A stretch of 43,924 nt of DNA from Selenomonas sp. F0473 (GTDB lineage: Bacteria; Bacillota; Negativicutes; Selenomonadales; Selenomonadaceae), in NCBI RefSeq assembly GCF_000315545.1, contig NZ_JH992902.1, forward strand, positions 2,021,878-2,065,801. Direction: 5' to 3'. Made by a program: the position numbers and the translations under genes. The notes beneath the pieces are model-generated. The model did not search any database and had not been told where the DNA came from. It saw nothing but the letters and a program-made list of their open reading frames with translations. Positions 40,274 to 43,715 of the stretch are shown piece after piece. The first letter of the stretch is position 1. Every line of letters begins with the position of its first letter.

Positions 40274-40314
40274 GGACAGAAAATTTTATGAAGATACGGA
40301 AAGGAATGGTCAAG

Positions 40315-41820
40315 TTGGCGCATTATTACACGGAACCGTCTCATACATTCGGAGAGTATCTGCTCATTCCGGGCTACTCTTCCGCAGAGTGCTTCCCGGC
40401 GAATGTTTCTCTGCGTACGCCGCTTGTCAAATTCCGGCGGGATGAAGAGCCGGCGCTGACGATGAATATCCCGCTCACCTCCGCGATTATGCAGGCGGTA
40501 TCCAACGATACGATGGCGATCGCTCTTGCCAAGCAGGGGGGGATTTCCTTCATCTACGGCTCCCAGTCCATTGAAAAAGAGGCGGAGATGGTCTCCCGTG
40601 TGAAGAACTATAAGTCCGGATTTGTCAGCAGCGACTCGAATATCAGCCCGGAGACGACGCTCGGCGGCGTGCTCGACCTCCTCGCAAAGACGGGGCATTC
40701 CACGATGGCGGTGACCGAGGACGGCTTGGCGAACGGGAAACTGGTCGGCATTGTGACCAGCCGCGACTATCGCGTGTCGCGCATGTCGCTCGATACGAAG
40801 GTCGGCACATTTATGACCCCGTTCGAAAAGTTGGTCTGGGCGGACGCGGACGCCACGACGCTCACGCGTGCGAACGATCTCATTTGGGACCACAAGCTGA
40901 ACATGCTCCCGCTCGTGGACAAAAATCAGCGCCTGCGCTATATGGTCTTCCGCAAGGACTATACGGACAACAAAGAGAACGACCTCGAGCTGACGGACGA
41001 CAACAAAAGCTATATCGTCGGCGCCGGCATCAACACGCGCGATTATGCGGATCGTGTGCCGGCGCTCATTGCGGCGGGCGTGGATGTCCTCTGCATCGAC
41101 TCCTCGGAGGGGTTCTCCGAGTGGCAGCGGATGACGATTCAGCATATCCGTGAGGAGTTCGGCGATACGGTGAAGGTCGGCGCGGGCAACGTCGTCGACG
41201 GCGAGGGGTTCCGCTTCCTTGCCAACGCGGGCGCCGATTTTATCAAGGTCGGCATCGGCGGCGGCTCCATCTGCATCACGCGCGAGACGAAGGGCATCGG
41301 GCGCGGGCAGGCGACTGCTCTCATCGATGTCTGCGCAGAGCGCGACAAGTATTATAAGGAAACGGGCGTCTACATCCCTATTTGCTCGGACGGCGGCATT
41401 GTCTACGACTACCACATGACATTGGCGCTCGCGATGGGCGCGGACTTCCTCATGCTCGGGCGCTACTTTTCCCGCTTCGACGAGAGCCCGACGGACCGCG
41501 TTATGGTCAACGGCACCTATTACAAGGAATACTGGGGCGAGGGGTCGAACCGCGCGCGCAACTGGCAGCGCTATGACCTCGGCGGCAGCAAAAAAATGTC
41601 TTTTGAAGAAGGCGTGGATTCCTACGTTCCCTACGCGGGGCCTCTCAAGGAGAACGTCGAGACGACGCTCTCGAAGATTCGCTCTACCATGTGTAACTGC
41701 GGGGCGCTCACGCTGACCGAGTTCCGCGACAAGGCAAAGCTGACGCTCGTCTCTTCGACCAGCATCGTTGAGGGCGGGGCGCATGATGTGATATTGCGCG
41801 ATAAGCTTGGGCGCGACTAA
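40315..41820 (+). CDS. guaB: IMP dehydrogenase
   Basis: GuaB oxidises IMP to XMP, the committed step of guanine nucleotide synthesis. The 501-residue protein has a TIM barrel interrupted by a CBS pair (about 100-215), the catalytic loop [12 protein letters not shown] with nucleophile C320, the IMP-binding SDGGIVYDY near 356, and the flap region with the YLGGSKKM-like [11 protein letters not shown] choose TTG 40315, nine bases after AAAGGA, giving [19 protein letters not shown] at 40306 abuts the same site and ATG 40288 lacks one. Probably monocistronic. Confidence 0.95.
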
Positions 41821-41826
41821 GGGGGC

Positions 41827-41951
41827 GTGACGCAGTATTTTGGCGCATAGCTGTGTCACTGCAAAAAAATCATCGGTCGACGTAGCTCTTAACTACGCCT
41901 TCCCTTGATTTTTTTCTTGTTCCTTGCTCTGCATCCAAACTTCTGCGTCAC
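41827..41951. repeat. Palindromic repeat element, copy 1 (about 125 bp)
   Basis: The unit is bounded by perfect 9-bp inverted repeats, GTGACGCAG (41827-41835) and CTGCGTCAC (41943-41951). Inside are a perfect 10-bp inverted repeat, AAAAAAATCA (41863-41872) and TGATTTTTTT (41906-41915), and a central hairpin CGTAG-N7-CTACG (41881-41897). Together they form one nested long hairpin, similar in size and plan to ERIC or REP-type intergenic repeats. It lies between the convergent guaB and ttcA-like genes and contains no gene. Confidence 0.8.
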
Positions 41952-41961
41952 TTAGGTTACT

Positions 41962-42084
41962 GAGACACGGGATTTTGGCGCTTAGCGTCGTCATTTTTGG
42001 CGAACGCGTCGTCGACGTAGGTTCCTACTACGACTCCCTCGCGTTCTCCTCATACCTCGCCATGCATCAAATCTAGCGCGTCAT
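41962..42084. repeat. Palindromic repeat element, copy 2 (about 123 bp), diverged
   Basis: It starts 135 bp after copy 1 and aligns along its length: both begin G-N-GAC then ATTTTGGCGC, both have CGACGTAG-N7-CTACG at the centre (42013-42032), and both end GCATC-AAA ... GCGTCA(C/T)TTAGGTT. The inner stem is different in sequence but still perfect: GAACGCG (42002-42008) with CGCGTTC (42040-42046). The outer arms are weaker than in copy 1. Confidence 0.78.
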
Positions 42085-42133
42085 TTAGGTTCTATAGTAA
42101 ACAGTTTCCATAAATATAGTTGTAAATTCAATC

Positions 42134-42187
42134 AAAAAAGGCAGCAACACAAATGTAATTTTACAATCTGTGTCGCTGCTTTTTTTA
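42134..42187 (-). terminator. Bidirectional terminator before the ttcA-like stop
   Basis: AAAAAAGGCAGC...ACACA on the left pairs with TGTGTCGCTGCTTTTTTT on the right (one mismatch), with an inner TGTAA/TTACA hairpin. It ends the minus-strand thiN-ttcA transcript and partly overlaps the last codon. Confidence 0.88.
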
Positions 42188-42967
42188 TGCCCTTTGCATG
42201 AATGCGCGATAGGTTTTCTCCATCTCTTTGCGCGTCTTTGTCGCGGGCCAGAGCTCGCCGAGCGCGCCTTCACGCATGCCGGCGGCGAGATGGTCATAGA
42301 GCAGGGTATTTTCGGCTCCGAGTTTTGCGATAAGTTCTTTTATCGTCTGACGCATCGTATTTCCGTTGTGCGGACAGGGGGACGGCAGCGGCGTAAAGCC
42401 GTGATACTGAATCGCGTCGACGAGTTCCTGCTCGCGGAAGTAAACGAGCGGGCGGATGACCGTTAAATTTGTACGTTCGAGATAGGTCTTCGGGCGGAAC
42501 GTGTTCAGCTGTCCCGAGTAGAAGAGGCTCATGAGGAATGTCTCCACCGCGTCGTCATGGTGGTGTGCGTAGGCGACCTTATTCAGGTTGTGTTCCACCG
42601 CATAGCGGTTGACCGCACCGCGGCGGAAGAACGCACAGGTGAAGCAGGGGCTTTTATCATCCTGCGCCGCAATCGTTCCCGCAATGTCCACGTCTACAAC
42701 CTCATACGGGACATCAAGATTTTTGCAGAAATCGGCGATGGCGCCGGTATCCAACGGTTCGTCGAACTCCGGGTTCACCGTAAATGCCGCAATGGAGAAA
42801 TCCTTTTTCAGCCGATCGCGGAGGATGGCAAGCGCATAGGTGAGGAAAATGCTGTCCTTACCGCCCGATACGCCGATCAGAATGCGGTCGCCGTTCTCGA
42901 TCAGATCGAACTCGACCACCGCGCGCATGAGCTTACTGAAATAGGACTGTGGTATATTGATATTCAT
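42185..42967 (-). CDS. ttcA: TtcA-family tRNA thiolase (tRNA 2-thiocytidine synthesis)
   Basis: TtcA-type enzymes adenylate and thiolate cytidine 32 of tRNA with an iron-sulfur cluster. The 260-residue protein has the PP-loop SGGKDS (residues 34-39), the CxxC pair C108-x2-C111 in SPCFTCAFFRRG, AYAHHHDDAVETFLM near 130, and a third cysteine in PSPCPHNG. ATG 42967 follows GGGAG and gives MNINIPQSYFSKLMRAV; longer in-frame reading upstream would overlap thiN. It lies 22 bp after thiN. TtcA-like proteins may have other thiolation targets, so the exact substrate is inferred. Confidence 0.88.
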   Translation of the reverse strand: MNINIPQSYFSKLMRAVVEFDLIENGDRILIGVSGGKDSIFLTYALAILRDRLKKDFSIAAFTVNPEFDEPLDTGAIADFCKNLDVPYEVVDVDIAGTIAAQDDKSPCFTCAFFRRGAVNRYAVEHNLNKVAYAHHHDDAVETFLMSLFYSGQLNTFRPKTYLERTNLTVIRPLVYFREQELVDAIQYHGFTPLPSPCPHNGNTMRQTIKELIAKLGAENTLLYDHLAAGMREGALGELWPATKTRKEMEKTYRAFMQRA

Positions 42968-42989
42968 GAATGGAACTACTCCCAGCGAT

Positions 42990-43715
42990 TTATTCTTTGT
43001 GGCAGAGATAGACGCCGAGCCTGCCGCGTTCGATGGAGACAGAGAAACGGCGCGACGTGTTTTCGAGAGCAAATACATTGCTGATCGTTGTAGATTTGGA
43101 GCTTGTAATTACCGCATTGGAAAGTTCCCAGCGAAGCCCTTCCGTCGATACCCCGACGCATTCCTCCGTGAAAGGGAGCAGGGAAATCGCGCGCGGCGGA
43201 TTGTCACATTGAATGGAGAGCGATGCGCCGTCGTGCAAATAAAACAGGGTTTCGCGGTCATCCGCAAGCACACAGGGGACGGGCGCGTATGCGCAGACTG
43301 CGGCAGTGCTGAACAGATGATCGAGACGACCGCCGAAGGCTGCCGTCAGAACGACAAGCGGCGGAACGGGAAGCTGCGCGGCAATCCGGAGCGCCAGCGC
43401 CGTATCCGTATCATCCTTTTCGCGAGGGTAACGGCGCGCCTTGGTTCCGCGTTCGACTGCCCATGACCAAGCCGCGTGATCGGCGCTGTCGCCATCGCCG
43501 ATCAGTAAGGAGGGAGGGACCGATGCATCGCGACATAGATTCACGCCGCGGTCTATCGCCCAGACGGGCGGAGCAATCCGAGAACCTTGCGCCACGGACA
43601 TAAGCTGCGTGAGCCATGCCGGAGAAGGCGGGCGTCCTCCCCCCACAAGAATAAGCGCATCCGTCGCGGCGCATGGGAGAGCGGCACACAGTCCCGGAAG
43701 TGAGAGCATATGCAT
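42990..43715 (-). CDS. thiN: Thiamine pyrophosphokinase
   Basis: ThiN transfers pyrophosphate from ATP to thiamine to make TPP. The 241-residue protein has a pocket of family motifs: VWAIDRGVNLC near residue 50, LLIGDGDSADH (the GD-x-DS motif) near 70, REKDDTDTALAL near 97 and FGGRLDHLFS near 126, all in the order typical of ThiN. A somewhat unusual 30-residue N-terminal part is rich in Ala and Leu. No TPP riboswitch is visible upstream. It heads a two-gene operon with the ttcA-like gene. Confidence 0.9.
   Translation of the reverse strand: MHMLSLPGLCAALPCAATDALILVGGGRPPSPAWLTQLMSVAQGSRIAPPVWAIDRGVNLCRDASVPPSLLIGDGDSADHAAWSWAVERGTKARRYPREKDDTDTALALRIAAQLPVPPLVVLTAAFGGRLDHLFSTAAVCAYAPVPCVLADDRETLFYLHDGASLSIQCDNPPRAISLLPFTEECVGVSTEGLRWELSNAVITSSKSTTISNVFALENTSRRFSVSIERGRLGVYLCHKE

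Follow-up and report, generated by a model that had tools for sequence, protein, structure and literature searches.

Integron attC sites are imperfect hairpins that lie right after a stop codon and are recognised as one folded strand; their core boxes are RYYYAAC and GTTRRRY. The ERIC sequences of enterobacteria, also called IRU (RU-1), are about 127 bp long, form one long imperfect hairpin and are dispersed in very variable copy number, and in E. coli they are classed as spanning the borders of coding and non-coding DNA (PMC2267715 and PMC10969869, in the parts available to us). REPs are palindromes of 20-40 bp with a GTAG or CGTC tag (PMC3733652, available part), and ribosomes stall at REPs lying no more than 15 nt from a stop codon (Liang et al. 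2015, cited by PMC12306157, accessible part). The MITE QMITE2 is described as occurring mainly in 3' UTRs (PMC10969869, same part). Geobacter multicopy sequences are intergenic and include a family of 24 with the central palindrome GRCGTAGCGCTGCTACGCC (PMC2700814, in an excerpt).

Here we describe a hairpin repeat that we read, with a probability of about 0.62, as a non-autonomous mobile element of ~135 bp, similar to REP, ERIC and MITE sequences, that spread in a burst within one lineage and is polar towards stop codons. It came to light in a window of 43,924 nucleotides, the whole stretch analysed, from contig NZ_JH992902.1 of Selenomonas sp. F0473.

The repeat pair downstream of guaB and its dispersal

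Two tandem hairpin units of ~135 bp occupy window positions 41824-42090, between guaB and a convergent PP-loop gene (Table 1). The first-pass annotation had described tandem palindromic units with a 135-bp period between convergent genes. We recovered this arrangement, with a start-to-start period of 135 bp, nested inverted repeats in copy 1, and all the stems and loops present in the sequence. Its boundaries (41827-42084, with units of ~125 bp) have been corrected to a start at ~41824 and an end of copy 2 at ~42090. The motif CGACGTAG-N7-CTACG lies at 41878-41897 in unit 1 and 42013-42032 in unit 2, with different loops. Around it, the different but fully paired inner stems claimed for the two copies were both found, and in many copies two-sided changes preserve the stems.

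Table 1. Features around the repeat pair (window coordinates).
Feature	Position	Strand	Details
guaB (IMP dehydrogenase)	40288..41820	+	Stop codon TAA 41818-41820; ORF; Pfam IMPDH E 4e-109
Repeat unit 1, full copy	41824..41957	+	Fixed end GGCGTGACGC starts 3 nt past guaB stop codon
Unit 1 inner stem-loop	41863..41915	+	AAAAAAATCA 41863-41872 / TGATTTTTTT 41906-41915 around CGACGTAG-N7-CTACG
Repeat unit 2, the more diverged copy, in tandem	41958..42090	+	
Unit 2 inner stem-loop	42002..42046	+	GAACGCG 42002-42008 / CGCGTTC 42040-42046 around CGACGTAG-N7-CTACG
Terminator-like hairpin with T-run between convergent genes	42141..42186 (about)	+	Read from sequence
Convergent PP-loop (ATP_bind_3) gene	42185..43078	-	ORF; Pfam E 2e-19

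Both units sit between the guaB stop codon and the terminator-like hairpin, a position that would place them in the guaB 3' UTR ahead of the terminator, and so probably in the transcript. In element-free relatives, guaB is closely followed by similar terminator-like hairpins, directly at the stop codon in G013 and after ~15 nt in G008. A consensus promoter/terminator scan returned two terminator-like sites (1.3 in shuffles), the hairpin at 42141-42186 not among them, and no promoter. On each strand, all 200 shuffles fold less well than unit 1 (z -4.8 and -8.2). Unit 2 folds more weakly (z -1.4 and -2.6), and is equalled by 16/200 shuffles on the plus and 4/200 on the minus strand; the case is carried by the family, not by unit 2 alone.

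The repeat is dispersed. As a DNA query, the guaB unit pair has 46 matches in its own genome (E <= 1), and a covariance model built from 35 units has 75 (E <= 0.1), a few of which are both-strand readings of one place. Profile scans of the stretches around matches resolved 91 units, 59 of them near full length, in 61 arrays in this 2.07-Mb genome (G000), and, in the stretches of Selenomonas artemidis DSM 19719 (now Centipeda artemidis; G003), 58 arrays with 98 units, of which 60 are nearly complete. Among 14 congeneric genomes, these two have at least 55 matches each, G001 and G012 have two, G005 has one and nine have none. The copies of G005, G012 and G001 (L033-L035) all lie between tRNA-Ile and tRNA-Ala genes, antisense to the tRNAs. 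Copies are also seen in tRNA-Ile/tRNA-Ala (rRNA) spacers of G000 (L089 15703-16074 and L135 6112).

Orthologous sites occur with and without the repeat. The guaB end of S. artemidis also carries the units, seven relatives that were read are element-free there (G005, G013, G002, G008, G006, G001 and G007), and a model match is absent from the guaB end of the other five congeners. Of the 61 G000 arrays, 27 mark gene ends occupied in both species, one site is empty and 33 were not located; from the S. artemidis viewpoint 27 are shared, five empty and 26/58 not located, counts that overstate sharing since the S. artemidis stretches were picked around its copies. The copy numbers across the congeners suggest a burst of spread in the lineage shared by these two related oral bacteria. 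As a side observation, successive quarters of distance from the origin hold 1, 9, 21 and 30 of the G000 arrays, which are denser towards the presumed terminus; the origin is assumed to lie opposite the skew switch near 1.35 Mb.

Related repeats extend well beyond the genus. A broader model (R2), scored on no more than eight candidates per genome and run also on the genomes that supplied its training units, matched 82/380 Negativicutes genomes in 35/102 genera. Outside the class, weaker matches occur in 20 of 398 genomes drawn from the phylum; the four inspected of these 20 (G584, G726, G679 and G705) have the same layout by eye. One genome with another family of the repeat, G301, has 121 matches. 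Within window positions 41500-42500 and five loci of distant relatives, no Rfam covariance model apart from tRNAs reached its gathering score; phages, plasmids and E. coli have zero sequence matches to the units. Among the papers listed by our literature searches we saw no description of the family, the nearest lead being the Geobacter multicopy family.

The first-pass annotation's proposal of an unnamed repeat family is thus borne out by 61 arrays in the genome itself, a second loaded species and the lack of a fitting Rfam model. Its alternative proposal of a non-autonomous mobile element is probably right, given the dispersed copies, the orthologous sites without the element and the patchy distribution. 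One of the checks it recommended, a covariance model searched against this genome and other Negativicutes, was run and gave further copies with preserved stems. Its stated grounds for refutation, a lack of other copies or unpreserved stems, are answered by copies in this genome and its relatives whose stems covary.

The fixed end at stop codons

The repeat is polar towards stop codons. In model orientation its fixed end reads (A)GGCGTGACGC, and the end profiles hold no upstream motif. Twelve of the 119 arrays (61 + 58) lack this end, leaving 107 that were scored against gene calls from a purpose-made codon-score caller. The fixed end lies at the stop codon of an upstream same-strand gene in 81/107. 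In 61 arrays the stop is at -8 to +3, against 8.3 of 84 expected if elements were placed uniformly in the same gaps; in eight it is 4-16 nt upstream, with an element-like scrap of 7-15 nt between (e.g., GGCGTGA); and in twelve it falls within the first 30 nt of the element, so that the gene ends inside it. Three further arrays are otherwise within 30 nt of a same-strand stop and 23 have none, although the start of one of these 23 coincides with the stop of yidD, a gene missed by the caller. Several of the 23 sit behind terminators or ahead of an antisense gene's start. Copies at L146 6042, L113 5873, L112 6046, L116 5630 and L132 4540 start just past the T-run of a terminator-like hairpin, and at L089 the fixed end is some bases off the 5' end of a tRNA gene.

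In most of the cases compared, element-free orthologs place the junction at the ancestral stop codon. From 38 element-bearing gene ends, a set that excludes arrays whose gene overlaps the element (stop inside it), 32 have an ortholog in G001, G006 or G007 sequence, and in 26/32 the proteins with and without the element stop at the same residue. Replication-strand bias was considered as a cause of orientation and rejected: the leading coding strand carries 43/61 G000 arrays vs 332/456 genes, a similar share, and orientation therefore follows the gene, not replication. Partial units retain the stop-codon end in 50 cases, the other end in 15 and neither in four (p 1.6e-5). This bias would suit copying from the fixed end, and decay of the outer tandem copy is also possible.

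A second family shows the same polarity. The G301 sample comprised 51 matches, of which four weak partial ones were dropped, leaving 47 for position and orientation (the end pattern is missing in eight of them) and 38 for mismatch alignment. The same end lies near same-strand stops, at -1 to 24 nt, in 21/29 copies, where uniform placement predicts 7.8; among 19 copies, none has an opposite-strand stop 36 nt or less from the other end. Same-strand starts are within 26 nt of the far end in 8/27, and where the gene on the fixed-end side is antisense, 11/18 copies are 8-50 nt away from its start. End matches in this genome number 139 on the left and 125 on the right, and among the matches listed the pairs read off are up to ~340 bp apart, some copies with both ends 190-340 bp apart representing longer variants. 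Separately, in relatives without this family (G001, G006 and G007; L157-L161, L179, L188 and L191-L193) other repeats, such as GGAAGCACTGATAAATTCA and CTCGTTACGCAAGCGGTCG-type stretches, seemingly follow soon after stop codons.

An ordinary MITE, mobilised by a DDE or Y1 transposase and inserting anywhere, might leave copies at stop codons through purifying selection alone. Such an element would be dispersed, with inverted ends and tandem and partial copies, as seen here, and gene ends are a known location of both MITEs and ERIC (PMC10969869 and PMC2267715, in the parts available). Furthermore, in the consensus the element end has stop triplets in all frames (TGA at ~+7, TAG at ~+27 and TAG at ~+63), and the twelve genes that end inside the element agree with survival by frame closure. 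However, random insertion sits poorly with 61/84 junctions in so narrow an interval and with polarity in two families, and also with the finding that the outer stem varies between families while the interior is common to them. We regard this explanation as plausible but on balance doubtful.

Covariation and strand asymmetry

The hairpin covaries. In alignment A1, 93.6% of cells are paired and two-sided changes affect 19/29 pairs; covariation is 0.339 vs 0.123 in shuffled alignments (0/500 as high), and never above 0.088 with slid partners. The inner stem is the most variable helix, with two-sided changes in 5/5 pairs. Between families (A3, 25 units), two-sided changes affect 10/13 pairs (2/500 shuffles as high); the pair-type count of the broad model on A3 is not above shuffles (156/500).

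The two strands are also unequal. The more stable fold is that of the reverse strand in 50/57, 46/59 and 24/24 copies (4/28 other-family loci gave no sequence for this comparison), and its mismatches are purine-purine rather than pyrimidine-pyrimidine by 637:56, 656:47, 332:26 and 490:106. One of the two strands is thus shaped for folding. In this genus it is usually the antisense of the mRNA, as at guaB, whereas in tRNA/rRNA spacers it is the sense strand, and both cases occur in G301.

Paired changes could arise from DNA processes, such as template switching within the palindrome or gene conversion between copies, and would then be uninformative about selection on folding. Across 27 orthologous-site pairs, 97 base pairs have changed on both sides and are still paired, 27 have changed on one side and 83 are broken in one copy, so that two-sided changes outnumber one-sided ones; with random partners in place of orthologous sites, 51 are two-sided and 154 broken. 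The closest S. artemidis copy is the orthologous-site copy in only 5/34 cases, and some sites share an outer stem around different interiors (e.g., L101/L128: outer 1.00, inner 0.46). These two observations indicate that inter-copy exchange probably supplies part of the covariation. As a full explanation, DNA processing is a serious contender that we nonetheless think falls short: the purine-purine mismatches persist on one strand and are common to families, where template correction would erase them, and compensations occur between families as well.

The first-pass annotation had taken the compensated pairing as a sign of selection on a folded DNA or RNA form, possibly a structured 3' UTR of guaB. 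A regulatory or stabilising RNA element kept by selection on the transcript, with spread as a secondary matter, would fit the strong covariation within and between families, the way the units begin at the stop codon, ahead of the terminator, and the sharing of gene ends by both species. Selection on the mRNA strand also predicts that G-U pairs should outnumber A-C. At model pairs, the mRNA strand has 175 G-U vs 86 A-C, but this excess comes from one conserved column, G-U in 98/116 copies, and without it the ratio is 77:86. On the reverse strand, the two species give 143:164 and 135:186 (unbiased palindrome alignment, in which the conserved column counts as A-C), while other families show a modest G-U excess (86:54, p 0.009; 125:96, p 0.06). 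Together with the antisense folding and the inter-copy exchange, the failure of G-U to exceed A-C, this column aside, means that covariation is not proof of RNA selection. Zero copies in 9/14 congeneric genomes likewise argue against an RNA element, which we consider unlikely, if slightly less so in view of the conserved G-U column. The units do lie in the guaB 3' UTR, as the annotation supposed, but the compensated pairing does not support selection on the RNA. A folded transcript is possible, but a folded single-stranded DNA form in mobility fits better because the sense of the better-folding strand varies by site.

Mobility, effects on genes and comparison with known systems

We propose that an enzyme supplied in trans would recognise the folded single strand and join its fixed end to the target. 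Insertions would then persist mainly where a reading frame ends at once, because the fixed end offers stop triplets in all frames. A settled copy would form the start of a 3' UTR ahead of the terminator. Its probable action would match that of REP hairpins near stop codons, with slower 3'-to-5' decay and altered translation termination. Selection alone is not expected to produce so exact a junction, and thus the model needs a targeting step beyond it.

No mobilising gene emerged from the two candidates considered, a resident IS200-type transposase and a resident reverse transcriptase. The IS200-type transposase was set aside as the cognate enzyme: two IS copies examined share no sequence with the repeat, and the transposase also occurs in element-poor relatives. 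Y1 transposase genes above the cut-off number seven in G000, and half the congeners have one (7/14 with, 7/14 without). One of the seven IS200-type elements of G000 (L244, 1319-2038) lies near an array (897-1164) and shares no sequence with it. A resident reverse transcriptase was likewise rejected, PF00078 being found in 1/14 congeners (G006) and absent from both G000 and S. artemidis.

The repeat does have one precise end and truncation at the other, as expected of target-primed retroelements. A target duplication or exact far-end junction could not be read, since spacers are too diverged between relatives for the far junction to be placed. The folded reverse strand, as RNA or single-stranded DNA, might be copied from its fixed end onto the DNA 3' end of the coding strand at the stop codon. 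Although we give this little credence, it would explain the exact stop junction, the head-to-tail arrays, the fixed-end scraps of 7-15 nt and the partial copies without a far end. The repeat would then be a mobile element that targets the point where translation ends, with related elements across many Negativicutes. Chance palindromes or an assembly artefact, for which the weak advantage of unit 2 over shuffles could speak, are negligible given copies elsewhere in this and a second genome and strong covariation.

The family, spread over 35/102 of the Negativicutes genera searched, is missing from Rfam. Through its exact, polar placement, a single genome offers dozens of genes, matched by element-free orthologs in sister species, as a natural collection for direct tests of how stop-proximal hairpins affect translation and mRNA decay. 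By analogy with REPs, stop-proximal copies are likely to affect both mRNA decay and translation termination. Should insertion itself, and not selection, create the placement, a means of targeting gene ends that is not yet known would be indicated.

The repeat differs from attC sites in being scattered over the chromosome, not in cassette arrays, and the boxes RYYYAAC/GTTRRRY were not found in its end profiles; the imperfect hairpin directly past a stop codon is common to both. With ERIC it shares a single long imperfect hairpin in spacers, transcribed if its position before a terminator is a guide. The label "ERIC-like" in the first-pass annotation holds for the ~127-bp class of imperfect hairpin but not for membership: both units lack a match among 20,395 E. 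coli records (blastn 'distant', E <= 0.01), and so exact a fusion to stop codons is not described for ERIC in the parts of the literature available.

The likeness to REP/BIME elements with RAYT lies in palindromes within 3' UTRs, whereas those palindromes measure 20-40 bp vs ~135 bp here, REP size and tag are lacking, and Y1 transposase does not track copy number. The Geobacter palindrome GRCGTAGCGCTGCTACGCC resembles the CGACGTAG-N7-CTACGCC of the repeat, a lead that comes from comparing the partial published description and not from an alignment. Prokaryotic MITEs (Correia, QMITE2 and Chunjie) are short, dispersed and non-autonomous with inverted ends, as is the repeat, but a parent transposon was not found here (the G000 IS200 shares no ends with it), and between families its interior is conserved but its outer ends are not. 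ERIC, REP and MITE elements all resemble the repeat in its probable way of working, whereas membership is lacking or at best possible in each.
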